Numbered from the stretch's first letter, positions 8,750-63,224 are shown. The stretch: 64,000 nucleotides of DNA from Thermodesulfobacterium thermophilum DSM 1276 (GCF_000421605.1 NZ_ATXI01000008.1:1-64000), one strand, 5' to 3'. Program-made: numbers and translations. The notes: generated by a model not told the origin, from the sequence alone.

Positions 8750-9929
8750 AAATATTGTTAATAAACAAAAAATTCTTTTTCTTTCTTCTCGGCTTCCATA
8801 TCCGCCAATCGGTGGAGATAGGCTCAAGAACTACTGGTTACTTAAAATTCTTTCCAAACATTTTAAAGCTCATCTGGTGTCAATAGTTGAAGAAGAAATA
8901 CCAAAGGAATTTTATGATTGGACAAATGAAATTGGAATTACATTTAAACTTTTTCCAAAACGAAAAACTCAATTTTATCTGAATGCTCTGAAATCACTAT
9001 ATAATGGTTTACCTTTACAGGTGAATTATTACTATTTCAAAGATGTTCAACAATACATAAATTCCATCTATACCGAATATGATCTGATTTTCTCAACACT
9101 TGTTAGAACTGCTAAATACGTTATGGAGTTAAATAAACCTAAAATTTTAGATATGGCTGATTCTATAGGCTTAAATTATAGAAGAAGTGCACAAAATACG
9201 AAATCAATACTTTGGAGATTTATTTATAGCTATGAAAGTGCGAAATTGTTAGAATTTGAGGAAAAATGTATTGAAATATTTGACAAAACTTTATTTTTTA
9301 ATAGAGAGGAAAGAGAATTTTTTCTAAATGAAAATAAAACTGAATGGATCCCACATGGAGTAAATGAAGATCTACTAATTTACGAAAAGGTAAATCCAAA
9401 TTACAAAAATTATGTTGCCTTTTTCGGAAAGATGAATTATCAGCCAAATATAGATGCTGTTTTGTGGTTCATAGATAAGGTTTTTCCACATTTAAATAAA
9501 AACATTAAATTTATTATAGTTGGAGCCTACCCTCCAAAAAAAATTACTTCCCTAAAAGATAAATATTCAGATATTGAAATTACTGGTTTTGTAGAAGATC
9601 CATATGAAATATTAAAATCTGCCTTGTGTGTTGTAGCTCCTATGAGAACAGGAGGAGGAATTCAGAATAAAATTCTTGAGTGTATGGCTTTGGGAACAGT
9701 TAATGTTGTCTCTTCCTTGGCAGCAAAACCCATAGGTGCCAAAAATATGGAACATTTTATAGTAGTTGACGACCCAAAGGAAATGGCAAATATAATAAAC
9801 AATATCCATGCTCATCCTGATAAATATGAACACATCAAACGGAATGCGAGAGAATATATTAAAAATAACTTCACCTGGACCATTTATGAAAAAAAAATAT
9901 TAAAGATTATTGAGGAGGTCTTATCATGA
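8742..9929 (+). CDS. family 1/4 glycosyltransferase (Stp1-like)
   Basis: A 395-residue GT-B glycosyltransferase. The start FLSSRLPYPPIGGDRLKNY matches the type found with exopolysaccharide and exosortase-linked loci (the TIGR03087-like 'PEP-CTERM associated' sugar transferases); no exosortase is visible here. The C-terminal domain has VAFFGKMNYQPN, IVGAYPP, and the donor-binding VVAPMRTGGGIQNKILECMA, where the last glutamate is expected to hold the sugar nucleotide. It overlaps its neighbours on both sides (8 and 4 bases), so it sits inside a tightly packed operon. Confidence 0.82.
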   Translation: MIRNIVNKQKILFLSSRLPYPPIGGDRLKNYWLLKILSKHFKAHLVSIVEEEIPKEFYDWTNEIGITFKLFPKRKTQFYLNALKSLYNGLPLQVNYYYFKDVQQYINSIYTEYDLIFSTLVRTAKYVMELNKPKILDMADSIGLNYRRSAQNTKSILWRFIYSYESAKLLEFEEKCIEIFDKTLFFNREEREFFLNENKTEWIPHGVNEDLLIYEKVNPNYKNYVAFFGKMNYQPNIDAVLWFIDKVFPHLNKNIKFIIVGAYPPKKITSLKDKYSDIEITGFVEDPYEILKSALCVVAPMRTGGGIQNKILECMALGTVNVVSSLAAKPIGAKNMEHFIVVDDPKEMANIINNIHAHPDKYEHIKRNAREYIKNNFTWTIYEKKILKIIEEVLS

Positions 9930-10948
9930 TAATTCGGTCTTGTGCACCTTTAAGACTTGGGCTTGCAGGTGGGGGAACCGATGTAAGTCCCTATTCTGAT
10001 TTATATGGTGGGGCAGTTTTAAATGCTACCATATCAATGTATGCCTATGCAACCCTTGAACCACGAGATGACGGAAAAATAGTTTTTAATTCAGTAGACA
10101 CGCAAAAAAAAGTGGTGCTTGACTCAAATGAATACTTAGAAATTGAAGGCGAATTAGATCTTCTAAAAGGGATATACAACAGAATTGTAAGAGATTTCAC
10201 TAAAACCCCCCTTTCTTTTGAACTAACAACTTATGTAGATGCTCCTCCTGGCTCTGGGCTTGGAAGTTCATCAACTCTTGTTGTCGCTGTTTTAGGAGCA
10301 TTTGTAGAATGGCTTAGATTGCCGCTCGGAGAATATGAAATCGCACATCTTGCGTTTGAAATAGAGAGAAAAGACCTTAAAATGGCTGGAGGAAAACAAG
10401 ATCAATACGCTGCAACATTTGGAGGGTTCAACTTTATGGAATTTTACGATAACGACAGAGTTATTGTTAATCCACTAAGAATAAAACCAGAGATTATTAA
10501 TGAACTTCAATTCAGATTACTCCTTTATTATACAGGCACAAGTAGACTCTCTTCAAAAATCATCGAGGCTCAAATGAAAAATGTTATTGAAAAAAAGGAA
10601 AAGTCAGTTGAAGCAATGCATAAACTGAAGGAACAAGCTATACTCATGAAGGAAGCAATACTTAAAGGTGAACTGGATAAAGTGGGAGAAATTTTAGATT
10701 ATGGATGGCAGTATAAAAAACAAATGGCAGAAGGTATTACAAATCCTGTGATTGAAGAAATATATGAGACTGCTAAAAAGGCTGGAGCAATTGGAGGAAA
10801 AATATCAGGCGCAGGTGGTGGCGGATTTATGATGCTTTATTGTCCAGAAAATACAAGGTATAAAGTAATTGAAGCATTGCAAAAATTTGGCGGAGAGTTC
10901 AGAAGATATCAGTTTACAAAATATGGATTGGAAACATGGAAGGCATAA
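9926..10948 (+). CDS. hddA: D-glycero-alpha-D-manno-heptose-7-phosphate kinase
   Basis: GHMP-family sugar kinase of 340 residues that makes heptose 1,7-bisphosphate on the GDP-D-glycero-alpha-D-manno-heptose route. Motif 1 APLRLGLAGGGTDV near the N-terminus, the ATP-binding PPGSGLGSSST loop near residue 108 and the C-terminal GGKISGAGGGGF motif are all present and intact. Length fits HddA. The next two genes encode the matching nucleotidyltransferase and a truncated phosphatase, which supports heptose over other GHMP substrates. The start overlaps the upstream stop by four bases and has GAGGAGG just ahead. GmhA, the isomerase for the first step, is not in this window. Confidence 0.86.
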   Translation: MIIRSCAPLRLGLAGGGTDVSPYSDLYGGAVLNATISMYAYATLEPRDDGKIVFNSVDTQKKVVLDSNEYLEIEGELDLLKGIYNRIVRDFTKTPLSFELTTYVDAPPGSGLGSSSTLVVAVLGAFVEWLRLPLGEYEIAHLAFEIERKDLKMAGGKQDQYAATFGGFNFMEFYDNDRVIVNPLRIKPEIINELQFRLLLYYTGTSRLSSKIIEAQMKNVIEKKEKSVEAMHKLKEQAILMKEAILKGELDKVGEILDYGWQYKKQMAEGITNPVIEEIYETAKKAGAIGGKISGAGGGGFMMLYCPENTRYKVIEALQKFGGEFRRYQFTKYGLETWKA

Positions 10949-23768: not shown

Positions 23769-24928
23769 GATTCTTCCTCTTCTTCAAGTTTTTTGTAAAG
23801 TTTAAAAAGATGAGGTATTTCTTCATCTTGAAACAGGACTTTGATTTCTACAAGTTCTGGCTTGATTTTAAGGAAGATATCTACCAGTTCTGGATCAAAT
23901 CGTGTTCCCTTTTCGTTTTTGATCACCTGAAAGGCTACATCATAAGGTAAAGCTTTTCGGTAAGGTCTTTTGGAGGTAAGGGCATCAAATACATCCGCGA
24001 TGGCAACGATCCTTGCAAAAAGGGGAATTTTTTTACCTTTTAAACCAAAGGGATACCCTCTGCCGTCCCATCTTTCGTGATGGTAAAGGGCAATTTTCTG
24101 TGCAGCCTTCAGGTATTTTAAGTTAGAACCTTCTAAGATCTGGGCTCCAATTACCGTATGGAGTTTCATTATCTCCCATTCTTTTTGAGTAAGAGGTCCA
24201 GGTTTGAGTAAGATTTTATCTGGGATACCTAATTTCCCTATATCATGGAGGGGAGAGGCATACTGAAGGATTTCTATCTGGTCCTTAGAAAGGTTTAAGG
24301 CCTCTGCGATTTTTGTACAGTAAAAGCTTATCCGGTGGATATGAGCCCCGGTATGTTCGTCTCTGTATTCAGCTGCCCTGGCAAGTCTTTGGATGAGTTC
24401 TAACGAAAGCCTTCTTATCTCTTCATGGGCTTCGCTTAGGCCTAAATAGATTTTTTGTAGTTCTCTAGTTTTTTGGATGACTTCTTTTTCAAGGTTATGC
24501 TGGTAGTTTTTAAGAAATTCCCGGTATTTTTTGTTTTTGCTTAAGGTTTTAATCCTTACAAAAAGTTCTGGGATAAATACCGGTTTGGTTAAGAGGTCGT
24601 CTGCCCCTGCGGCAAGGCACCTCATCTTGGTCTCTAAGTCGTTTACTCCTGTGATGATGATTACCCCTATGTCAAAGGTTTTATAGTCGTTTTTGATGAT
24701 TTTGCAAAGAGAAAGGCCATCTAACCCTCCTGGGAGCAGGTAATCTATAAGGGCAATGTCTGGGTCTACCTCTTCAAGTTTAGCCAAAAATTCCTGCCCA
24801 GTCTTAGCAGAAAAAACCTGAAATCCCTCTAAACTTAAAACCTCAGAAAGAGAAGCTCTTATCTGGTCGTCATCGTCTACCAGAAAAACTTTGGTGTTTT
24901 TGGGGTCCTCTATCTCAGGTAAAAACAT
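23765..24928 (-). CDS. response regulator with HD-GYP phosphodiesterase domain
   Basis: A 387-residue two-domain regulator. Residues 12-130 form a receiver: the acidic pair in LVDDDDQ, the phospho-acceptor in DIALIDYLLPGGLDG and the conserved lysine in LLTKPV. A coiled linker leads to an HD-GYP domain (about 190-360) with HDIGKLGIPDKIL and HHERWDGRGYP, the metal ligands and GYP motif of c-di-GMP phosphodiesterases. No sensor kinase is adjacent. It is the last gene in the smpB-sbcC-mobA run and overlaps mobA by 19 bases. Confidence 0.9.
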   Translation of the reverse strand: MFLPEIEDPKNTKVFLVDDDDQIRASLSEVLSLEGFQVFSAKTGQEFLAKLEEVDPDIALIDYLLPGGLDGLSLCKIIKNDYKTFDIGVIIITGVNDLETKMRCLAAGADDLLTKPVFIPELFVRIKTLSKNKKYREFLKNYQHNLEKEVIQKTRELQKIYLGLSEAHEEIRRLSLELIQRLARAAEYRDEHTGAHIHRISFYCTKIAEALNLSKDQIEILQYASPLHDIGKLGIPDKILLKPGPLTQKEWEIMKLHTVIGAQILEGSNLKYLKAAQKIALYHHERWDGRGYPFGLKGKKIPLFARIVAIADVFDALTSKRPYRKALPYDVAFQVIKNEKGTRFDPELVDIFLKIKPELVEIKVLFQDEEIPHLFKLYKKLEEEEES

Positions 24929-48650: not shown

Positions 48651-49331
48651 ATGGCTACCACCCCGGTTAACACCAATAGTTCTACCATTAGTTCAGTAAA
48701 CAGCTCTTCTCAGAATACCCAGAGAACACCTAAAAAAGTTTTACAAAAAGATGATTTTATAAAACTTTTTGTTACTCAACTTCAGTATCAAGACCCTATG
48801 AAACCTCTTGAAAACAACGATATGGCTATTCAACTTGCTTTGTTCAATCAGGTAGACCAGCTTTTTAACATAAACGACACCTTAAAGAGTTTGGTTGACC
48901 TTGGTAAAAACCTTAATCTTACCTATGTCTCAAGTTTGGTAGATAAAAAGGTAAAGGTAGATTCAAACATAGGAAGGGTAGAGCAAGGTCAGTTTTTAGG
49001 GGGTGAGTTTAAGGTTGAGGGGTTTGTCACCGGAGGAGAAATAGTTATAAGGGATTCTAAAGGTAATCTGGTAAAAAAGATAACCCTTACAGACCTTAAA
49101 GAAGGGATCTATAAGATAGAATGGGATGGAAAGGATCAGGCAGGAAACTCTGTGCCTGATGGTAACTATACCTTTTCTATCCTCCTTTTTGATGGTAAAA
49201 CGGTCAATTCGGTAAAACCAACGATGGTAGCTAAAGTTACAGGAGCTAAGTTAGGGGAAGAAAACAGGCTTGTGATAAACGGGGTCCAGGAAATTAACCT
49301 TTCTGACATCAAAGAATTGATAGGAGGTTAA
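48651..49331 (+). CDS. flgD: flagellar hook capping protein FlgD
   Basis: A 226-residue scaffold that caps the growing hook. The N-terminal half has the secretion/cap segment FIKLFVTQLQYQDPMKPLENNDM; the second half carries FlgD Ig-like and tudor-like folds (IEWDGKDQAGNSVPDGNYTF). Preceded by AAGGAGGAAAAAGG. Adjacent to both hook genes. Confidence 0.93.
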   Translation: MATTPVNTNSSTISSVNSSSQNTQRTPKKVLQKDDFIKLFVTQLQYQDPMKPLENNDMAIQLALFNQVDQLFNINDTLKSLVDLGKNLNLTYVSSLVDKKVKVDSNIGRVEQGQFLGGEFKVEGFVTGGEIVIRDSKGNLVKKITLTDLKEGIYKIEWDGKDQAGNSVPDGNYTFSILLFDGKTVNSVKPTMVAKVTGAKLGEENRLVINGVQEINLSDIKELIGG

Positions 49332-49334
49332 GAA

Positions 49335-50738
49335 ATGGGACTTTTTGGTGCCATGTATATAGGATATAGCGGGGTGTTAACCACTTCTATGGGAATGAAT
49401 GTTTCTGCAGACAACATCTCTAACCTTAACACCACCGGGTTTAAAGGAAGTAGGTATGAGTTTGCCAATGCCCTGGTAGAAGCTTATGCAGAAACCTTTA
49501 GAAGAGAAAAAGGTTTGGGAAGTAACGTAAAGGCTATAAGAACGCTTTTTAACCAAGGGGCTATCGTAACCACAGATTCTCCAACTGACCTTGCCATCTC
49601 TGGTAAGGGCTTCTTTGTGGTCTCAGACCAAAAGGGAAATATTTTTTTTACTCGGGATGGACAGTTTTTTGTTAACCAGGTAGACGAACAACACTTGGCC
49701 TTACAAAACAGTATGGGACTTTACCTTTTGGGTTCAGATCCAGATGCAACTTCAGCCGATTTAACCAATCTTAAACCATATCTTATCCCTAAGGTTATGC
49801 CTCCTAAAAGCACATCTAACATAGACCTTCAGCTTATCTTTGATAGCACCAAACCTGTTGAACCTATAGACGATCCACTTTGGCAAAGTTATGATGCAAC
49901 CTCTTCTAACATAATAGAAAATCAGAAGTTTGATTATGTCTTTGATTTTTATGGTTATGATTCCTTTGGGAACAAGACTAACTTTAAGCTTTATGTAGAC
50001 CGCACTTCAAATCTTAATGAATATGAGCTTTTGTTTGCCCTGGAAGACCCCACCTTAGACGGAAGAGGTTCAGGGAAATATCAAGGGGCATTTTTGTATG
50101 GAAGGCTATCTTTTGGAGGTAACGGAGATATAGTGGGGGCTAATTTTTGGGAGATAACCAACCCTTCTTCCTTTGACCCCACAGTTGACCCACCGATGGA
50201 TTTAACCACTCTTGGAAGACCACAGTTTCAGGTAAACATAGGAGGTGCTACCCAAACCATAACCTTAAACCTTGGTTTCAGGGTAGAACCAGACGGAAGT
50301 ATAACGAGATCTGCCAATCCCAGTAAACTTCAGGCTAACCCTTTTGCTCAGATGTACTTTAACCAAGATGGTTATCCAGTAGGGGTATTTGACAAGATAG
50401 AGGTGATTACCGAAGAAGGTAAGGTGGTTGCCTGGTATACCAACAACAAAAACATAGAGGTTTCAAAGATTTTCTTAGCAGACTTTTCTGGGTATGAAGA
50501 AAATTTGATTAAGGTAGGAAATGGACTTTTTATGGCAAGAGAAGGGGCTCAGCCTTTTATCTTTTCTCCCGGGGTTTTTGAAAGGGGAAGGCTTCTTTCT
50601 GGAGCCCTCGAAAACTCAAACGTAGATTTAGCTTCTGAGATGGTGAGTTTAATTACCTTGCAGAGGGCTTTCCAAAGTAATACCAGGGTGATAACCACCG
50701 CAGACCAGATGTTAGAAGATTTCTTAAGTAAACGATAA
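49335..50738 (+). CDS. flagellar hook protein, first of two
   Basis: A 467-residue FlgE/FlgF/FlgG-family protein. Start MGLFGAMYIGYSGVLTTSMG leads into the conserved DNISNLNTTGFKG; the end has ENSNVDLASEMVSLITLQRAF and QMLEDFL, the coiled terminal pair typical of axial proteins. The middle is smaller than in the second copy. It begins three bases after flgD. It may be a hook subunit, a hook-cap-like variant or the true FlgE; the order flgD-flgE favours FlgE. Confidence 0.82.
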   Translation: MGLFGAMYIGYSGVLTTSMGMNVSADNISNLNTTGFKGSRYEFANALVEAYAETFRREKGLGSNVKAIRTLFNQGAIVTTDSPTDLAISGKGFFVVSDQKGNIFFTRDGQFFVNQVDEQHLALQNSMGLYLLGSDPDATSADLTNLKPYLIPKVMPPKSTSNIDLQLIFDSTKPVEPIDDPLWQSYDATSSNIIENQKFDYVFDFYGYDSFGNKTNFKLYVDRTSNLNEYELLFALEDPTLDGRGSGKYQGAFLYGRLSFGGNGDIVGANFWEITNPSSFDPTVDPPMDLTTLGRPQFQVNIGGATQTITLNLGFRVEPDGSITRSANPSKLQANPFAQMYFNQDGYPVGVFDKIEVITEEGKVVAWYTNNKNIEVSKIFLADFSGYEENLIKVGNGLFMAREGAQPFIFSPGVFERGRLLSGALENSNVDLASEMVSLITLQRAFQSNTRVITTADQMLEDFLSKR

Positions 50739-50772
50739 AAAAATCCGATAAAAATATAAAGGGGGTGTTGAT

Positions 50773-53049
50773 ATGGGTTTGACCGATGCCTTGTTTACAG
50801 GAACAAGTGGGTTGAGGGCCCTTGGACATGGTATGAGCGTAATCGGAGACAATGTTTCTAATTTAAATACTACCGCGTTTAAAGGTGCCAGGATCTCTTT
50901 TAGTGATGTTATGTCTCAAAGTATCAATACCGGGGCTGGCTCAGGACAACTTGGAAGAGGAGCAAGTATTCAGGCACTTTATTCTCTTTTTAATCAAGGG
51001 TCTTTTGAATCAACAGCCAACCCAACTGATATGGCTATAGCCGGATCAGGGTTTTTTATCGTAAAAGACCCTAAAAGTACAGGAAATGTGTTTTACACCA
51101 GAGACGGACAGTTTGTGATAGATAAAACAGGATATTTAGTTAATGCAGGTGGGTTAAGGGTGCAAGGATGGAGGATAGATGAGGTAACCGGAGACATAAC
51201 CGGTGCTATCACCGACATTCAAATAGACCGCTCTTCTCCTCCGGTTAAGACTTCTAAGATAGATGTTATCACAAACTTAGATGCAAGAGAGGAAACAAGA
51301 ACTAAGCTTATTTTTTTAAGCGGAAATCTATACGACGACCCTTCAGACGGAAACTATACTTATTTCCCTAACGCAGGCTATTATGAGGTAGTAATAAGGG
51401 ACGTAGATGGTAAAGACAATAAGATAGGAATAAGACTTGGATATAACGCAGCCACCCAAAAATGGGCCTATGAAATCTATAACTTGGAAACAAACCAGAC
51501 TATAGTCAGTTCTACAGACAGCACCTCAACTAGAGCCTCTTTTGAACTCCCCTCTACCAAAGAGCTAATAAGTTTAGACTGGAGTGGAGTTACCCATGTA
51601 AACGGTGCTAACGACATTAAGATGCCAGGAAGAACAGGAATGATAGAATTGTCAGGTGATGTAGATCCAGATACCTGGGAATACATAGACTTTATTGCTC
51701 CTACTGATCCTCAGGTAATAGATGCTAACGGAACGCAAAGGAAGCTACGTGTGTATATAAGGTATGACAGCACCGATGGCAGGTGGGACTATAGGGTTTT
51801 TGAAAACCCTGCTGCAACCCCTGCAACTAATCCTGATGACCCTACTCAAGAGACAGGGACCCTCCTTGTAAAAGGTGACAACTCTGATGAAACGAACATT
51901 TTCTTCTTTCTTGATGGAACCACTCAAAGGATCAACTTAGACTGGTCTAACTTAGGGTATAGCGGTGGTACACCAACTGCTACAGTGTTTACCTTACAGG
52001 AAACTGATACCCTTCTTTCATACTGGGATGCAAGACAGGATGTTCCTATACCTTCTACCGCCTATTCTTACAGAACAACCCTTACTGTGTATGATTCCCT
52101 TGGGACTCCTCATGAGATTACGGTTTATTATAACCCTACCACCAAAGATAACGTTTACGAATTTTTGGTGGCTTGTAACCCTAATGAAGACGCAAGAGAT
52201 TTTACCAAAGACACCCTTCCTATGCAGTGGCAGTACGAAGAAGGAACGATTACTCAACAGCTTCAAATACCCTCAGGTAATGTGCAGGCTAAGAGTTTAA
52301 AAGGGGTATTGATGTATGGTAGGCTTGAATTTGATAACCAAGGAAATGTAAAAAAGTTTTATGAAACCTACCGTTTGGATGCAAACACCGGGGCTTTAGT
52401 TCAGGTGGTAGATACCTCTGGTAATCCTGTTCCAGACCCGGTGGATAAATTTTCAGCCCTTGGTTCACACGGTTACCCCCTTATGATAGCCGACTTTTTG
52501 GGCATAGATTTTCCATATGATATTTACCCACCAAACTCGCAAGATCAAGGTCTTGTAAGAAATGACCTTCAGCAAATAGAGTTAAACTTTGGATACTTTT
52601 TTAAAGACTCCTGGAGGTCTGAATCTGTAAGAACTACGCAATACGCAACCTCTAATGCCACCATTTTTTACGACCAAGACGGTTTTGGCCCAGGTGCCTT
52701 GGAAAGTATAACTGTAGACAACCAAGGTATTATCACCGGCAATTACTCTAACGGAAGGGTTATTCCTCTCTGGATGGTTTCTTTGGCAAACTTTAACGCT
52801 CCTGAAAGGCTGCAGAAAGTAGGGGGTAATCTCTTTAAAGAAACCACCCACTCAGGACCTCCTGTAACCGGAAAACCAGGTAGCAATGGCCTTGGAACTA
52901 TAGCTCCTAACTCGATAGAACAGTCTAACGTAGACCTGGGAGAACAGTTTGTAAAAATGATTGTCTTTCAGAGAGGCTTCCAGGCTGATTCCCGTATCAT
53001 CACCGTCTCAGATACCATGCTTGAAGAACTGATAAATCTTAAGAGATAA
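50773..53049 (+). CDS. flgE: flagellar hook protein, second of two (large)
   Basis: A 758-residue axial protein. Its ends match those of the upstream gene (MGLTDALFTGTSGLRALGHG, DNVSNLNTTAFKG, then EQSNVDLGEQFVKMI). The middle, about residues 150-620, is much longer and contains extra surface domains with aromatic-rich YYEVVIRDVDG and YNPTTKDNVYEFL parts. Such enlargement is common for hook proteins of polar flagella. Terminator-like stem follows at 53062. GGGGGTG provides the ribosome site. Confidence 0.85.
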   Translation: MGLTDALFTGTSGLRALGHGMSVIGDNVSNLNTTAFKGARISFSDVMSQSINTGAGSGQLGRGASIQALYSLFNQGSFESTANPTDMAIAGSGFFIVKDPKSTGNVFYTRDGQFVIDKTGYLVNAGGLRVQGWRIDEVTGDITGAITDIQIDRSSPPVKTSKIDVITNLDAREETRTKLIFLSGNLYDDPSDGNYTYFPNAGYYEVVIRDVDGKDNKIGIRLGYNAATQKWAYEIYNLETNQTIVSSTDSTSTRASFELPSTKELISLDWSGVTHVNGANDIKMPGRTGMIELSGDVDPDTWEYIDFIAPTDPQVIDANGTQRKLRVYIRYDSTDGRWDYRVFENPAATPATNPDDPTQETGTLLVKGDNSDETNIFFFLDGTTQRINLDWSNLGYSGGTPTATVFTLQETDTLLSYWDARQDVPIPSTAYSYRTTLTVYDSLGTPHEITVYYNPTTKDNVYEFLVACNPNEDARDFTKDTLPMQWQYEEGTITQQLQIPSGNVQAKSLKGVLMYGRLEFDNQGNVKKFYETYRLDANTGALVQVVDTSGNPVPDPVDKFSALGSHGYPLMIADFLGIDFPYDIYPPNSQDQGLVRNDLQQIELNFGYFFKDSWRSESVRTTQYATSNATIFYDQDGFGPGALESITVDNQGIITGNYSNGRVIPLWMVSLANFNAPERLQKVGGNLFKETTHSGPPVTGKPGSNGLGTIAPNSIEQSNVDLGEQFVKMIVFQRGFQADSRIITVSDTMLEELINLKR

Positions 53050-56989: not shown

Positions 56990-57017
56990 TTGACAAAATA
57001 AAAAATATGAGTAAATT
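56990..57017 (+). promoter_or_regulatory. iron-locus promoter
   Basis: TTGACA (56990-56995) and TAAATT (57012-57017) are separated by 16 bases. The first gene begins at 57080 with AGGAGG. It is divergent from the peroxiredoxin promoter, about 56 bases away. Confidence 0.6.
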
Positions 57018-57034
57018 GAGATTTAATTTCAATT
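57014..57034. promoter_or_regulatory. Fur-like operator candidate
   Basis: AATTGAGAT-TTA-ATTTCAATT is a 21-base inverted repeat (one mismatch in nine) that overlaps the -10 element of the iron-locus promoter. AT-rich repeats of this size and position are typical for Fur-family repressors. A perfect palindrome AATTGCAATT (57031-57040) lies next to it. Confidence 0.5.
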
Positions 57035-57079
57035 GCAATTTTAAAAAGCAGGATGGTAAAAACAAACAGGAGGCCAGGT

Positions 57080-57358
57080 ATGACAGTTGCAGTCGTAGGA
57101 GGGCACGATAGGTTAAAACCTCAGTTAGAAGAATATGCTAAAGAAAACCAGCTGAAACTCAGGTTTATCAACAGATGGTCTCCTCAAGCTCCTCATTCCC
57201 TTTCATCAGCTGATTACATCGTCATAATAACGGGATGTGTATCTCATGAACTCGTTAAGCTGGCTAAAAGTTGCGGTAAGAAAAAATGTATCTTTTGCCG
57301 TGCCAAAGGGCTCTGTAGACTCAAAAAGCTCATCGACCAGTTAAAGGTGGATGCCTAA
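57080..57358 (+). CDS. DUF2325 family protein
   Basis: A 92-residue protein of the DUF2325 family (VAVVGGHDRLKPQLEEYAKENQ, then SADYIVIITGCVSHELVKLAK). The start at ATG 57080 is picked because AGGAGG lies just upstream, and the in-frame 57053 start adds unrelated residues. The C-terminal part carries cysteines CGKKKCIFC and a later C before LKKL, more than the family usually has, which could bind metal. It is the first gene of the iron locus. Role unknown. Confidence 0.75.
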   Translation: MTVAVVGGHDRLKPQLEEYAKENQLKLRFINRWSPQAPHSLSSADYIVIITGCVSHELVKLAKSCGKKKCIFCRAKGLCRLKKLIDQLKVDA

Positions 57359-57419
57359 ATTTTTTTTGCAGATTTATTGAAAATGAAATGCAGAATAAAT
57401 TAAATAAGGGAGGTCAGAC

Positions 57420-57752
57420 ATGGTTGAGGGTTTAAAAGAAAAGGGATTAATTCCTTTAGCTCTTCTTAGAGAAGGAGAGCTTGGCAAAATCTATTCTCTT
57501 TCTTCAGACTTAAAGGTTGATTCTTGGTATACCTGTAGAGGTTGTGGTGGTGTTGAGTGTTGTCTAAAAGGTAAAAAAGATGTTGTTAACCAAAAGATTG
57601 GGTCTATGGGTCTTAAACCCGGGCAGGTAGTAGAGGTAAAACAAAACAGACCAGGTAATCCTATTCTTCTTAGGGTAGAAGAAACTTTTATCGCGCTAAG
57701 CCGAAAACTGGCGATGAAAATAATGGTTCTTAAAACAAACCATAAATCATAG
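57420..57752 (+). CDS. FeoA-domain protein with a cysteine-rich insert
   Basis: A 110-residue SH3-like FeoA-type protein. The second half (VVNQKIGSMGLKPGQVVEVKQN, ending IALSRKLAMKIMV) is FeoA. Between the first strand and the fold lies an insert with C39, C42, C47 and C48 (YTCRGCGGVECCLKG), fit for metal or Fe-S binding. It lies 60 bases after DUF2325. A sensor or adapter role for iron uptake is plausible but inferred. Confidence 0.72.
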   Translation: MVEGLKEKGLIPLALLREGELGKIYSLSSDLKVDSWYTCRGCGGVECCLKGKKDVVNQKIGSMGLKPGQVVEVKQNRPGNPILLRVEETFIALSRKLAMKIMVLKTNHKS

Positions 57753-57772
57753 TTTAAAGGAGGGAGGCAGGG

Positions 57773-58530
57773 ATGAGTATACGAAAATGTCAAAAATTTA
57801 CCGTTTATCCCCTGTCTAACTTCCCATTAGGAGAATTGGCTGAGGTGATATGTATTTCTTCCTTTGACTTAAGCCTGAGGTTAAAAAGCATTGGCGTTCA
57901 GGAGGGAACTTTGGTAGAAATTATCCATCAGGACCCTTCTGGAGATAGGGTGGTAGTCAGGTTTAACGAAAGTAGAGTGGCTTTAGATAAAGCATTCCTA
58001 AAGCATATCTTGGTTAGACCATTGAAAACCTCCTATGAGATGTTGAGAGATTTTGCAAGGGTTGATCAGTTGACAGGTCTTCTAACACGACAGTTTGCTG
58101 AAAATCTCTTAAAAAAAGAGTTAGCCAACCCACCGTATTGCTTGGTTTTAGCTGATGTAGATGATTTTAAAAGATTCAACGACACCTTTGGGCACCAGGC
58201 AGGAGATAAGGTTTTAAAGGACATCTCTCAAGTTATCAGAAGGAACTTAAGAAAAACAGACCTGGCTGTTAGATGGGTGGAGAGGAGTTTGTTTTATTTT
58301 TGAGGAACACAACCGTTGAGATAGGACAATTGATAGCAGAACGTATAAGAAGGGCTGTGGCTGATCATATAGTCTGGTGGCAAGGACAGACCTTAGGAGT
58401 TACTCTAAGTCTCGGGGTTTGTGGAGCTCCTCCGGTTAGACCTTTAGAACTACTTTTTGAGATGACTGATAAGGCCCTTTATCAGGCCAAAAGATCTGGA
58501 AAAAATTTGGTTTTTCTATGCGAGGAGTAG
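57773..58530 (+). pseudogene. FeoA-GGDEF fusion, broken by a -1 frameshift
   Basis: Residues 12-80 form a FeoA-like domain (PLGELAEVICISS, RLKSIGVQEGTLVEI), followed by a diguanylate-cyclase domain. The first frame has the nucleotide-binding DVDDFKRFNDTFGHQAGD and the inhibitory-site RKTD, and ends in VRW. The second frame carries on directly with GGEEFVLFL, the active-site motif, to 58530. The junction TGGG at 58274-58277 lacks one G compared with a continuous W-G-G codon series. Both halves are otherwise intact. This is either a true single-base loss, or an assembly error. The first frame alone ends at 58303 after 176 codons. It starts with AAAGGAGGGAGG at its ribosome site. Confidence 0.85.
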
Positions 58531-58535
58531 GGAAG

Positions 58536-59210
58536 ATGTTGGCCAGACAATGCCTTTATGACCCTGAAATCGTAGAGTTATGTTGTCAGATAGAAAAATG
58601 TCAGCCTTTGATGGTTACTGTTCATCAAATCTGCGAAGTCTTGACCAATCTCATGGAAAGTAAAGACCTGCATACCAAATACCACTCAGAAAAAGTAGCG
58701 GTGTTAAGCTACATGGTTGCTTTATCCTTAGGACTTCCTCCTAAACTGGAAGACCTTATTCATATAGCAGGACATCTCCATGATATCGGAAAGTTTGCTC
58801 TACCTGATGAAATCTTGAAAAAACCAGGTCCCTTAACACAGCAGGAGTGGAAGATAGTCAAGAAACATCCAGTGATTGGGGCAGATTATCTCAAGGATAT
58901 CAGAATTTTTCAAGGCAAAGGAGGGGTTATAGAGATGGTGCTTTATCATCATGAAAGATGGGATGGAAAGGGTTATCCTGCAGGTCTTAAAAAACGGGAA
59001 ATACCTCTTGGAGCAAGGATAATAGCTGTAGCTGATGCCTTTTCTGCGATGACAGACAAGCGTCCCTACAGAAATCCTTTAAGTTTTGAAGAGGCCTTGG
59101 AGGAACTTAAAAAAGGCTCAGGTTCTCAGTTTGACCCAGAAATAGTAGACATTTTTCTTAGCATGGAAGAAAGAATAAGGGATTGGTTAGGGTTGATAAA
59201 CAAATCTTAA
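58536..59210 (+). CDS. HD-GYP domain phosphodiesterase
   Basis: A 224-residue HD-GYP protein that should cleave c-di-GMP. Metal ligands lie in HTKYHSEKV, HLHDIGKFALPDEIL and HHERWDGKGYPAGL, with the GYP motif intact; VADAFSAMTDKRPYR follows. ATG 58536 is chosen because GAGGAG at 58522-58527 gives an 8-base spacing. It begins just after the cyclase frame, so maker and breaker of c-di-GMP are coupled in one transcript. No N-terminal sensor. Confidence 0.9.
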   Translation: MLARQCLYDPEIVELCCQIEKCQPLMVTVHQICEVLTNLMESKDLHTKYHSEKVAVLSYMVALSLGLPPKLEDLIHIAGHLHDIGKFALPDEILKKPGPLTQQEWKIVKKHPVIGADYLKDIRIFQGKGGVIEMVLYHHERWDGKGYPAGLKKREIPLGARIIAVADAFSAMTDKRPYRNPLSFEEALEELKKGSGSQFDPEIVDIFLSMEERIRDWLGLINKS

Positions 59211-59226
59211 AAGGAGGTGAAAAACG

Positions 59227-59457
59227 ATGCTAAAACTTTCTAAGGTTAATTTAGGGAAGAGAGTTAAGGTAGTTTCTGTTGAAGGCCCCCCCTCGGTAAA
59301 ACAACGCCTAAAGGAAATGGGTATAACCCCTGGGGTTGAGCTTCAAATAGTTAGGATTGCTCCTCTTGCTGACCCTGTAGATGTAGAAGTGCGAGGATAT
59401 CATCTTTCTATCAGAAAAAAAGAGGCAGAGTTGATAGAGGTGGAGGTGATAGGATGA
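59227..59457 (+). CDS. feoA: ferrous iron transport protein A
   Basis: A 76-residue small SH3-like protein (LKEMGITPGVELQIVRIAPLADPVDVEVRGYHLSIRKKEAELI) of normal FeoA length. It overlaps feoB by four bases (ATGA). It is the third FeoA-type domain encoded in the locus. Confidence 0.95.
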   Translation: MLKLSKVNLGKRVKVVSVEGPPSVKQRLKEMGITPGVELQIVRIAPLADPVDVEVRGYHLSIRKKEAELIEVEVIG

Positions 59458-61598
59458 AAGAAATAAAGATAGCAGTGGTTGGTAATCCTAACACAGGTAA
59501 ATCAAGTTTGATAAACGCCATTGCCAAGGCTAACCTTCAAGTTGGCAACTGGCCTGGGGTAACGGTAGAAAAAAAACAGGCAAAACTATCTTACAAAGAT
59601 TATATTTTGCACTTCATCGACTTACCTGGTACTTACAGTTTAACCCCTTATACCGTAGACGAAACCATTACCAGAGATTTTCTCTTTCTTGAAGACTACG
59701 ACGTTATTTTATGCGTGGTTGATACTACTAATCTTGAAAGAAACCTTTATTTTGTGGTACAACTGATAGAACTTGAGAAGCCTATGGTAATTGCCTTGAA
59801 TATGTTTGATGAGGCAAAAAAACTTGGATATAAGGTAGACATAAAACTTTTACAAGACATCCTTAAAGTAAAAGCAATCCCAACGGTAGCGGTGAAAGAA
59901 CAGGGAGTTGAAGAAATTAAGGAGGCCTTGATCGAAGTCTTTGAAAGGGCAATCGTGCCAACTAAGCTTCCTTATGGAGAGGAGTTAGAGGATTTAATAA
60001 AAACGATTTTATACCGGATAAAAGCGGTAAAACCGGATTTAGAAAGGGTAAGCTTGGCTGTGGTTTTTAAGTTGTTAGAGGGAGAGGAGGATCTTTTAAA
60101 AAAGTTGGGTATTGAGCTTGATAAAAGAGAAATAGAAAACATCCTCAAACACATTAAGACAGTCCACGAGGTAGAGTTTAGCGATTACTTGCTTGATATC
60201 AGGTATGGTTTAGCAACCGGAATTGCCAAAATGGTGCTTCAACGCCCAGAAATCAGACGGGAGACCCTTACAGAAAAGATAGACAAGATAGTTTTAAACA
60301 GGATTTTAGGGATACCTCTTTTTCTTTTGGTGATGTGGCTTTCTTTTAAGGTTGCGTTTGATGTAGCTAACCCTTACATAGATTTTTTAGACAAAGCTGT
60401 AAATGAGGTTTTTAGAAGATGGATAGAGGCAGGGCTTTCCTCTGTAGGGGTAACAGACTGGTTAAATTCTCTTATAGTGGATGGGATTTGGGTAGGAGTA
60501 GGGACTGTGTTGTCTTTTATTCCTATCATCGGGATGATTATGTTTATGATAACCTTTCTTGAAGCTACCGGTTATATGGCAAGGGCGGCTTTTCTTATGG
60601 ATAGAATCATGAGATACTTTGGTCTTCAGGGAAAAGCTTTCATCCCTCTTCTTATGGGGTTTGGTTGTAATGTTTCGTCTGTATATGCTTGTAGAACTTT
60701 AGAACAGGAGCATGAGAGAAAACTTACGATGTTTATAGTTCCTTTTATGTCTTGTGGAGCAAGACTGCCAGTTTATGCTTTGTTTGTGGCAGCTTTTTTT
60801 GCAACTCACTCGGCAGCGGTGCTTCTTTTCATCTATCTGTTGGGTATAGCTGTAGCTCTTAGCCTTGCTGTTATTCTTCACAAAACCTATTTTAAAGGGG
60901 TTAGCGGACCTTTCATCATGGAATTACCGCCTTATCGTATCCCTACCTTTAAAAATCTTGCCGTCCACACCTGGCTTAAGCTAAAACATTTTGTGATCAA
61001 AGCAGGGACTTTGGTTTTGGCCTTTAATGTTCTCATATGGATGGCACTAAACCTTCCCTGGAAGCCTGAAAAACCTGAAGACTCAATCTTAGGCAAAACA
61101 GGATATCTGATAGCCCCTATTTTTAAACCCTTAGGTTTTGGAGATTGGGCAAGTAGTGCCAGCCTTTTGGCAGGGTTTCCTGCAAAAGAGGTTATAGTTT
61201 CAACGATGGCACAAATTTATGGCGGAGATGTTGAAGATAACCCCCAAGAGGAACTTTCTTTTAAAGAAGACCTTAAAGAATTGCTTTTGCTTTTTGCTGA
61301 AAAAACAAAAGAAGTAGGGGTTAATCTGATCTCTACTTTTAGGATAGTTACCCTCACGGCAGAGGTATCAGAAGAAGGTACAGGTATTTTATCTGAACTT
61401 CAAAATAGGTTTACCCCTGCTTCAGCTCTTTCTTTTATGGTTTTTGTACTCCTATATTTTCCATGCATGGTTTATGCAGCAACCGTGAGGATAGAAGCAG
61501 GATCCTTTAAGTTCGTTTGTCAGATAATTTTGGTTACCTTTATCGTTGCCTGGATAGTATCTTTTGTAGTTTATCATCTTGCAAGGTTAATTTTATAA
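59454..61598 (+). CDS. feoB: ferrous iron transporter FeoB
   Basis: A 714-residue inner-membrane iron importer. The N-terminal G protein has G1 GNPNTGKSSLINAI, G3 DLPGTYSL and G4 NMFDE; a helical GDI-like part follows, then the membrane part with two Gate motifs, including FGCNVSSVYACRTL-like GFGCNVSSV and MVPFMSCGARLP-like VPFMSCGARLP. Length slightly below E. coli FeoB, complete. Signal overlap with feoA suggests coupled translation. Confidence 0.97.
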   Translation: MKEIKIAVVGNPNTGKSSLINAIAKANLQVGNWPGVTVEKKQAKLSYKDYILHFIDLPGTYSLTPYTVDETITRDFLFLEDYDVILCVVDTTNLERNLYFVVQLIELEKPMVIALNMFDEAKKLGYKVDIKLLQDILKVKAIPTVAVKEQGVEEIKEALIEVFERAIVPTKLPYGEELEDLIKTILYRIKAVKPDLERVSLAVVFKLLEGEEDLLKKLGIELDKREIENILKHIKTVHEVEFSDYLLDIRYGLATGIAKMVLQRPEIRRETLTEKIDKIVLNRILGIPLFLLVMWLSFKVAFDVANPYIDFLDKAVNEVFRRWIEAGLSSVGVTDWLNSLIVDGIWVGVGTVLSFIPIIGMIMFMITFLEATGYMARAAFLMDRIMRYFGLQGKAFIPLLMGFGCNVSSVYACRTLEQEHERKLTMFIVPFMSCGARLPVYALFVAAFFATHSAAVLLFIYLLGIAVALSLAVILHKTYFKGVSGPFIMELPPYRIPTFKNLAVHTWLKLKHFVIKAGTLVLAFNVLIWMALNLPWKPEKPEDSILGKTGYLIAPIFKPLGFGDWASSASLLAGFPAKEVIVSTMAQIYGGDVEDNPQEELSFKEDLKELLLLFAEKTKEVGVNLISTFRIVTLTAEVSEEGTGILSELQNRFTPASALSFMVFVLLYFPCMVYAATVRIEAGSFKFVCQIILVTFIVAWIVSFVVYHLARLIL

Positions 61599-61688
61599 AA
61601 ATTATTTTTATGATAAAGGTGGCACAACTTTAAAGTTTATGTTAAAATTGTAAAAACATGTAGCTAAAACTAAATCAGGGGGGAGATT

Positions 61689-62840
61689 ATGATAAGAAAG
61701 GTTTTTACGACCTTGTCCTTAGGTCTTTTGGTTTTTGGAGTTCCTGTTAAGGCTAAGGCTTATGAGGTAAACGAAAAACTCTCTATCGAGGCAAACTTGA
61801 CAGGGGTTTACCAGTGGTTAGATAAGAGAAAGGGAGATTTTAAGGACGAGGAAAAAGGGTCTGTGGTTCTTGACGCAAGGGTTACGTTTAAACCTACAGA
61901 AAAGGATGAATTTTCTGTAAGAGGTAGTTTTGCCAAAGGAAATGGATTAAAAAAGGTTAGTCCTTTTAAACTCTCCCCTAATTCAGATGACCTCAGGGAT
62001 GACCTTCACAACATCAACAACCGTTCAAGAGACCATTTGCAAGAACTCTGGTATGCAAGAACCTTTGATCTGCCAGGCAACTCAACCCTTAAGACAACCT
62101 TGGGAATTATAGACGCAACCGCTTTCATCGACCAAAACCGGTTTGCAAACGATGAGCTGACACAGTTTATGAATGAGGCCTTTGTAAACAACCCACTGGC
62201 TAATCTCATAAGTTATGACTATGGAGTAGCTTTAGAGTGGTCTAAAGGGCCTTTTAGCTTAGGCTTAGTGGGGATGCAAAGCAAAACCGACGAGAATGAG
62301 GACCCGAGGTTTGACAAGAAAATTTATAATTATTATGCTGCTCAGGTAGGCTATAAATTGGAGACCTCTCTTGGAGAAGGAAACTATCGGGTTTTTGCCT
62401 TTACTACCAACAAGCGTTTCCCTGATTGGGATGGAGAAAAGAAAAAGGCCTTAAAAGGCTGGGGTATTTCTATAGACCAGGATATAATCAAAGATACCCT
62501 TGGGGTTTTTGCAAGAGCTGGTTTTCAGGATGATGACGCAGAAATAGACTACAAAAGCATGTATTCCTTAGGGTTGAACTATAAGTTTAAACCCTTTGGT
62601 GTAAAAAACGTTGAATTAGGGGTAGGTTACGCTTACCTTAAAGCCTCTTCCAAAAACGAAGAACTAAAACATACACAAGCTGTAGAAGCCTATCTTTCTG
62701 TTCCTATATACGAAAAAGAAAAACTCTTTGCCTCACATCTCACCTTTGACTGGCAATGGATGAAAGATAGGCTTAAGTACGAGGAAAACCCAGAAAATAA
62801 AGGTCATATCTTCGGGGTAAGGCTAAACTTAACTTTTTAA
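61689..62840 (+). CDS. outer-membrane porin-like protein
   Basis: A 383-residue beta-barrel protein with a signal peptide (about residues 1-24, cleavage after AKA). Alternating hydrophobic strands fill the length and the last residues LNLTF with terminal phenylalanine are the usual barrel signature for BamA recognition. It resembles alginate/carbohydrate-type porins weakly. It follows feoB by 90 bases with GGGGGG upstream; a role in iron entry is only suggested by position. Confidence 0.75.
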   Translation: MIRKVFTTLSLGLLVFGVPVKAKAYEVNEKLSIEANLTGVYQWLDKRKGDFKDEEKGSVVLDARVTFKPTEKDEFSVRGSFAKGNGLKKVSPFKLSPNSDDLRDDLHNINNRSRDHLQELWYARTFDLPGNSTLKTTLGIIDATAFIDQNRFANDELTQFMNEAFVNNPLANLISYDYGVALEWSKGPFSLGLVGMQSKTDENEDPRFDKKIYNYYAAQVGYKLETSLGEGNYRVFAFTTNKRFPDWDGEKKKALKGWGISIDQDIIKDTLGVFARAGFQDDDAEIDYKSMYSLGLNYKFKPFGVKNVELGVGYAYLKASSKNEELKHTQAVEAYLSVPIYEKEKLFASHLTFDWQWMKDRLKYEENPENKGHIFGVRLNLTF

Positions 62841-62863: not shown

Positions 62864-62889
62864 AGGGATAACCCCTCAAGGTTATCCCT
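62864..62889 (+). terminator. porin terminator
   Basis: AGGGATAACC (62864-62873) pairs with GGTTATCCCT (62880-62889) across a 6-base loop, followed by CTTAACTTTT. It lies 23 bases after the porin stop. Confidence 0.75.
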
Positions 62890-63053: not shown

Positions 63054-63224
63054 ATGGGGTTGTGGAAATGTAGTAACTGCGGAGAAACAAAAGAATCAAG
63101 GTGTAAGCCTAAAAAATGCCCTAAATGTGGAGAGATGAACACGATGGTTAAAGAAGGGACAGAAGCTAATTCATCCTCTTCTTGTGAGCCTAAGAAAAGA
63201 GGATGTAAGAAAAAAGCTGGGTAA
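63054..63224 (+). CDS. RCKP-type rubredoxin-like protein
   Basis: A 56-residue small iron or zinc protein. It has WKCSNCGETKESRCKPKKCPKCGE, where two CxxC pairs frame the RCKP sequence that names the family; a serine-rich linker and a CEPKKRGCKKK tail follow. ATG 63054 is supported by GAGGAGGAGGTGG just upstream. It may serve electron transfer in oxygen defence, as rubrerythrin and peroxiredoxin genes are within 11 kb. Confidence 0.82.
   Translation: MGLWKCSNCGETKESRCKPKKCPKCGEMNTMVKEGTEANSSSSCEPKKRGCKKKAG

Follow-up and report, generated by a model that had tools for sequence, protein, structure and literature searches.

In Thermodesulfobacterium thermophilum DSM 1276, one of a few sulfate reducers of hot springs with this layout, a run of ferrous iron uptake genes encloses two genes of c-di-GMP turnover, one a fusion of a FeoA domain to a GGDEF domain and the other an HD-GYP phosphodiesterase, and this gene context is good support for the view that c-di-GMP takes an input from iron status. 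The explanation that we favour, for Thermodesulfobacterium and two related genera, is a probably Fur-repressed Fe(II)-uptake operon whose FeoA-cyclase/HD-GYP module would report Fe(II) supply as c-di-GMP; taken as a whole it is tentative, and we put it slightly below an even chance. By analogy with other FeoA-type domains, docking of the cyclase or sensing of metal is the most likely task of the part fused to GGDEF. What FeoA does is still under debate, and for most cyclases the input signal is not known. A FeoA domain naturally joined to a cyclase, in a feo operon with a paired phosphodiesterase, would make cyclase activity a direct assay of sensing or binding by FeoA; transporter-coupled Fe(II) sensing would also join the known inputs of c-di-GMP.

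Organisation of the feo operon

The window is the whole stretch of 64,000 nucleotides that was analysed (NZ_ATXI01000008.1:1-64000, assembly GCF_000421605.1). Relatives are referred to below by our genome (G), contig (C) and locus (L) numbers where they have to be told apart. The operon has the following features:

56990..57017, plus strand: sigma-70-like promoter of the feo operon, TTGACA-16-TAAATT (consensus scan, 10/12)
57016..57032, plus strand: Fur-box-like palindrome TTGAGATTTAATTTCAA, at the end of the -10 element (genome scan, relatives, shuffles)
57080..57358, plus strand: DUF2325 protein with the Cys motif CIFC...C (Pfam PF10087, 60.6 bits; alignment with relatives)
57420..57752, plus strand: Cys-rich FeoA-like protein (Pfam FeoA, 50 bits; alignment)
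57773..58303, plus strand: N part of the FeoA-GGDEF fusion, FeoA and first GGDEF half (Pfam FeoA, 49 bits; GGDEF, 74 bits)
58275..58277, plus strand: GGG run where relatives have GGGG, a one-base deletion immediately 5' of the GGEEF codons (alignment with L035, G013, G010, G004 and G014)
58273..58530, plus strand: second GGDEF half, from GGEEF to the C terminus, in another frame (Pfam GGDEF positions 79-160)
58536..59210, plus strand: HD-GYP phosphodiesterase without a recognised sensor domain (Pfam HD_5, 145 bits)
59227..59457, plus strand: FeoA (Pfam, 76.7 bits)
59454..61598, plus strand: FeoB (TIGR00437, 600 bits)
61689..62840, plus strand: OprB-like outer-membrane porin (Pfam OprB, 45 bits)
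62864..62889, plus strand: intrinsic-terminator-like hairpin, 3' of the porin

Scores against Pfam and NCBIfam (TIGR00437) models bear out the gene order and the domain calls of an earlier sequence-only reading. The DUF2325 frame had been listed from 57053, and 57080 is the better start, as in relatives; the HD-GYP frame as listed begins at 58518. The match of the stand-alone FeoA to the NCBIfam model for ferrous iron transporter A falls below that model's cut-off. Above-cut-off FeoA matches in the genome number three in the operon and a fourth on another contig. All genes of the 57080-62840 run are on the plus strand, and neighbours either overlap, by 4 nt in the case of feoA and feoB, or are at most 90 nt apart. 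This co-directional run, the single promoter-like site and the terminator after the porin support the joint transcription that had been proposed, with one predicted transcript from the promoter-like site to the terminator. The porin is also the next gene after feoB in G013, G010, G004, G014 and L035. Directly past the operon (63063-63224), a small RCKP-type rubredoxin-like protein is encoded beside an exonuclease III-like gene.

The FeoA-GGDEF fusion in relatives

The fusion is present in 8 of the 30 genomes of the family, and the 22 that show none weigh against the favoured explanation. Besides the window genome, the carriers are four genomes of the same genus (G004, G006, G010 and G013, of which G006 is T. 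hveragerdense DSM 12571, locus L035), one of a second genus (G014) and two of a third (G022 and G028). Six of the eight, T. hveragerdense included, have the fusion in an intact frame; the G014 copy is frameshifted after GGEEF. Five of the intact copies read GGEEF or GGDEF and that of G013 reads GGEEI by a single F-to-I change, while D128, N136, D137 and the RxxD I-site, that is, the metal- and substrate-binding residues and the inhibitory site, are invariant in the relatives' copies. The favoured explanation is supported by the above-cut-off FeoA and GGDEF matches within one open frame in relatives, and by the catalytic and I-site residues kept in intact copies apart from GGEEI; the broken cyclase frames of the window and G014 and the GGEEI of G013 count against it. 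In G013 (L115, about 9796-10130) the C-terminal half of the GGDEF domain is ~80% identical to close relatives and its flanks ~97%, a mosaic tract with GGEEI in place of GGEEF, suggesting recombination.

Against the FeoA model (PF04023, cut-off 23) the fused domain scores 47-54 bits, and FeoA chains are also reached from it by sequence-profile search. Its structural model (pLDDT 81) matches the FeoA structures 3e19, 2k5f and 7r7b with TM-scores of 0.66-0.85, the best (0.85) to 3e19, and it also matches the SH3-like domains of DtxR/IdeR/MntR regulators. The sequence-only reading was to fall if this part lacked a FeoA fold; structure comparison of the model instead confirms a predicted SH3-like FeoA fold, which adds to the case for the favoured explanation.

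The fused domains group in a single clade (96/90) in a tree built from 49 FeoA-type domains, which again favours that explanation, and the fusion is, on this tree, of single origin. The clade lies outside the canonical FeoA clade (100/100), among FeoA-like proteins, its exact sister being unsure where long branches meet. The layout had been called unusual: a search of relatives finds both the fusion and the gene order kept, and the layout confined to part of one family. No fusion was found outside the family among 395 genomes sampled across the phylum, where most weak FeoA-GGDEF matches proved to be either DtxR-like proteins carrying a FeoA-like domain at the C terminus or stand-alone FeoA. 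Those partial matches of a genome-contig scan whose sequences were inspected proved to be GGDEF proteins of a PAS- or CBS-like kind, and a single-protein scan of an 84,980-species genome collection had a reach of close relatives only.

A one-base lesion in the window copy

In the window, the FeoA-GGDEF gene is not one open frame. The N part stops just beyond the GG(D/E)EF position, its frame being wrong after residue 168 where relatives stay in frame, and no single frame holds GG(D/E)EF together with the metal-binding and substrate residues, the break falling at GGEEF. Exactly one G is missing at 58275-58277 in alignment with five relatives. What had been read as one FeoA-diguanylate-cyclase gene is here a cyclase split into two frames by a one-base deletion; as assembled it would be dead, with the phosphodiesterase as the one working half of the module, unless the assembly is in error. 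Programmed frameshifting at GGG was rejected, as there is no slippery heptamer, and no clear ribosome site goes with the internal ATG at 58273.

The split-off GGDEF half shares 97.6% identity with residues 169-252 of L035 and differs from T. hveragerdense by 3 synonymous and 2 non-synonymous changes, five changes being too few for dN/dS to date the frameshift. Since this half still looks conserved, the lesion would be either an isolated assembly error or a very recent null mutation. That the gene is intact in the organism and the assembly wrong falls just short of an even bet, and would be compatible with any of the readings weighed below. The missing base is a single one within a short G run, the downstream half has few changes, and the fusion is the sole split gene among the 68 of the window compared with the close relative G013. 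However, the remaining window is clean against G013, which indicates an assembly that is otherwise good.

The HD-GYP partner and the neighbouring genes

The HD-GYP gene lies directly downstream of the fusion in all eight genomes and feoB is in the same operon in seven, both in favour of a working module coupled to iron uptake. In G028 the module and FeoA are present and feoB was not found within 16 kb downstream, which counts against it. All eight HD-GYP sequences contain HD and the HHExxDGxGYP motif, the latter in the form HHERWDG(K/S)GYP, and these are invariant. Seven of the eight PmGH metal ligands are kept in every one of them, the position of D308 being S; at the E185 position they have Y or F, as in the Y/F subfamily of PMC4159591, and H in the window. 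The residues at these two positions weigh against the favoured explanation, while the iron centres carried by HD-GYP enzymes (PMC4159591) speak for it. To judge from its sequence, the operon enzyme probably degrades c-di-GMP and is probably an iron enzyme itself. Only two HD_5 matches occur in the genome, that of the operon and one other, which lies in the same window (23885-24382, minus strand).

Relatives without the fusion (G018 and G024) keep the order DUF2325, Cys-rich FeoA-like protein, FeoA and FeoB, which makes the two-gene c-di-GMP module look like something gained by, or lost from, an older feo operon.

Several members of the operon are damaged in one genome or another. The DUF2325 gene of G013 (L115) has an in-frame stop, CAG to TAG, and that of G028 (L119, 18252-18449) looks frameshifted in a G run; the HD-GYP gene of G004 (L117, 10297-10905) is frameshifted near the C terminus and shortened. 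In the FeoB of T. hveragerdense DSM 12571 (L035, 7683-9444), an internal deletion after ~34 codons has removed most of the N-terminal G domain, and the remaining frame has 564 aa. Some of these lesions may be assembly errors.

A Fur-box-like site and a second locus

With up to 2 mismatches allowed, the 17-bp palindrome at the promoter has just one other match in the 1.79 Mb genome, and shuffled sequences almost never reach its match. In the relatives tested it also precedes the operon, in G004 ahead of an added first gene, and it precedes feo in the fusion-less G018, G024 and G001 too; it is absent from the second DUF2325 locus of G028. It has 3 mismatches to the dFUR box of PMC545781, the published box being delta-proteobacterial. 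Fur is predicted to bind the palindrome, and the feo operon is probably Fur-repressed; a site that is nearly unique and kept even without the fusion supports the favoured explanation.

The fourth FeoA-like gene belongs to a second locus (L004, contig C2, 95681-98890, minus strand), where it is flanked by a Fur-family gene on one side and, with an overlap, by a PilZ-phosphoribosyltransferase gene on the other, and encodes a protein with a Cys-His tail; a phosphate-binding-protein-like (PstS-like) gene follows. The order Fur, FeoA-like, PilZ is kept in ten genomes, all of the genus Thermodesulfobacterium (L182-L191), and is further support for the favoured explanation. The PilZ gene alone is present in most of the family; its pairing of PilZ with a phosphoribosyltransferase is unusual and equally widespread. 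PilZ is a c-di-GMP receptor, and the one at this locus is among four PilZ matches in the genome. The locus offers an independent context linking FeoA-type domains, Fur and c-di-GMP, though one of adjacency and not of function.

Comparison with known systems

The feoA-feoA-feoB operons of Geobacter and Desulfovibrio likewise have two feoA genes 5' of feoB, an OprB porin beside feo (with feoAAB in Geobacter) and a Fur-box-like operator; unlike the present operon, they were not reported to contain a FeoA-GGDEF fusion or an HD-GYP gene (PMC545781). Desulfovibrio also has a GGDEF gene, gdp, and an HD-domain gene, hdd, both predicted to be Fur-regulated, that is, the same kinds of gene under Fur in sulfate reducers, but at separate sites outside the feo operon and with no FeoA domain reported (PMC545781). 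In Stenotrophomonas maltophilia, SisP resembles the present proposal in that Fe(II) sets c-di-GMP turnover, but it is a PAS-GGDEF-EAL phosphodiesterase with Fe(II)-binding PAS domains, without FeoA and without a link to feo (PMC9600515).

Fusions of FeoA to a partner that it regulates are known from FeoA-FeoB proteins, e.g. in Bacteroides fragilis, where the partner of the SH3-like domain is the FeoB GTPase and not, as here, GGDEF (PMC8980893). GGDEF is not mentioned among the architectures counted in that survey of FeoA proteins, in which the stand-alone class is not subdivided. The solved ammonium-transporter chains 8qj3 and 8qpf, which match GGDEF, also join an uptake component to GGDEF, but in these GGDEF is attached to the transporter itself, and what is taken up is ammonium. 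In DtxR/IdeR/MntR, a FeoA-type fold acts as a regulatory domain in metal sensing, on a DNA-binding repressor instead of a cyclase. No description of a FeoA-GGDEF fusion was found in the literature searched, and FeoA appears to be new as a cyclase input domain, whereas Fe(II)-sensing c-di-GMP turnover was already known from SisP. The operon module would combine an ordinary cyclase/phosphodiesterase pair with an input domain and a setting that are both new.

Proposed mechanism and alternatives

In the favoured explanation, low iron would lift Fur repression, and the transporter and the c-di-GMP module would be made together. The SH3-like FeoA domain would serve both for input and for docking: it would bind metal or the G domain of FeoB, and this binding would steer dimerisation of the GGDEF domain. 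The HD-GYP enzyme would remove the signal, and between them the two enzymes would convey the supply of Fe(II), in the form of c-di-GMP, to receptors of the PilZ type. In favour of this scheme, FeoA elsewhere serves for interaction and binds the G domain of FeoB (PMC8980893), and an Fe(II)-sensing c-di-GMP phosphodiesterase exists (PMC9600515); the FeoB without a G domain in T. hveragerdense stands against it. The iron-c-di-GMP link suggested by the sequence-only reading is strengthened by the Fur-box-like operator and by the second Fur/FeoA-like/PilZ locus, and weakened by the interrupted cyclase of the genome as assembled.

Influence might also run in the reverse direction, which we regard as unlikely. 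The FeoA domain would only anchor the cyclase at FeoB, local c-di-GMP would tune the transporter, the porin or surface life, and iron would enter solely via Fur-controlled transcription. The use of FeoA domains as interaction modules (PMC8980893), the conserved Fur-box-like site and the place of the fused domain near other FeoA-like proteins, outside the canonical clade, are consistent with such an arrangement, but a c-di-GMP binding motif was found neither in FeoB nor in the porin, and G028 has the module with no feoB nearby. Less likely still is that the c-di-GMP pair is a dispensable passenger of the feo operon that is being lost in the lineage, a reading kept alive by the frameshifted cyclases of the window and G014, the G013 nonsense codon and GGEEI, the shortened HD-GYP of G004 and the patchy presence (8/30), but opposed by catalytic and I-site residues that are invariant across proteins only ~44% identical, by low dN/dS along the genes and by an HD-GYP gene always retained beside the fusion.

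An extension of the favoured explanation, which we consider rather improbable, would make FeoA-type SH3 domains the interface between Fe(II) transport and c-di-GMP in Thermodesulfobacterium: the FeoA-cyclase and HD-GYP enzyme would write and erase the signal, and the FeoA-like protein of the fur operon, coupled to the PilZ-phosphoribosyltransferase, would have a part in reading it, in a closed circuit from iron to c-di-GMP.

The genome holds 6 matches to EAL and 21 to GGDEF, a GGDEF count in which the split fusion gene figures twice, once for each half, so the effects of the signal may be local rather than global. The suggestion that the module switches motility and attachment was conjecture; flagellar-looking genes do lie upstream, but ~19 other GGDEF matches and the EAL matches share the genome with it. 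The genes in question are of the flagellar hook type (FlgD/FlgE-like by sequence) and occupy positions 48651-53049 of the window, 4-8 kb upstream of the feo operon.
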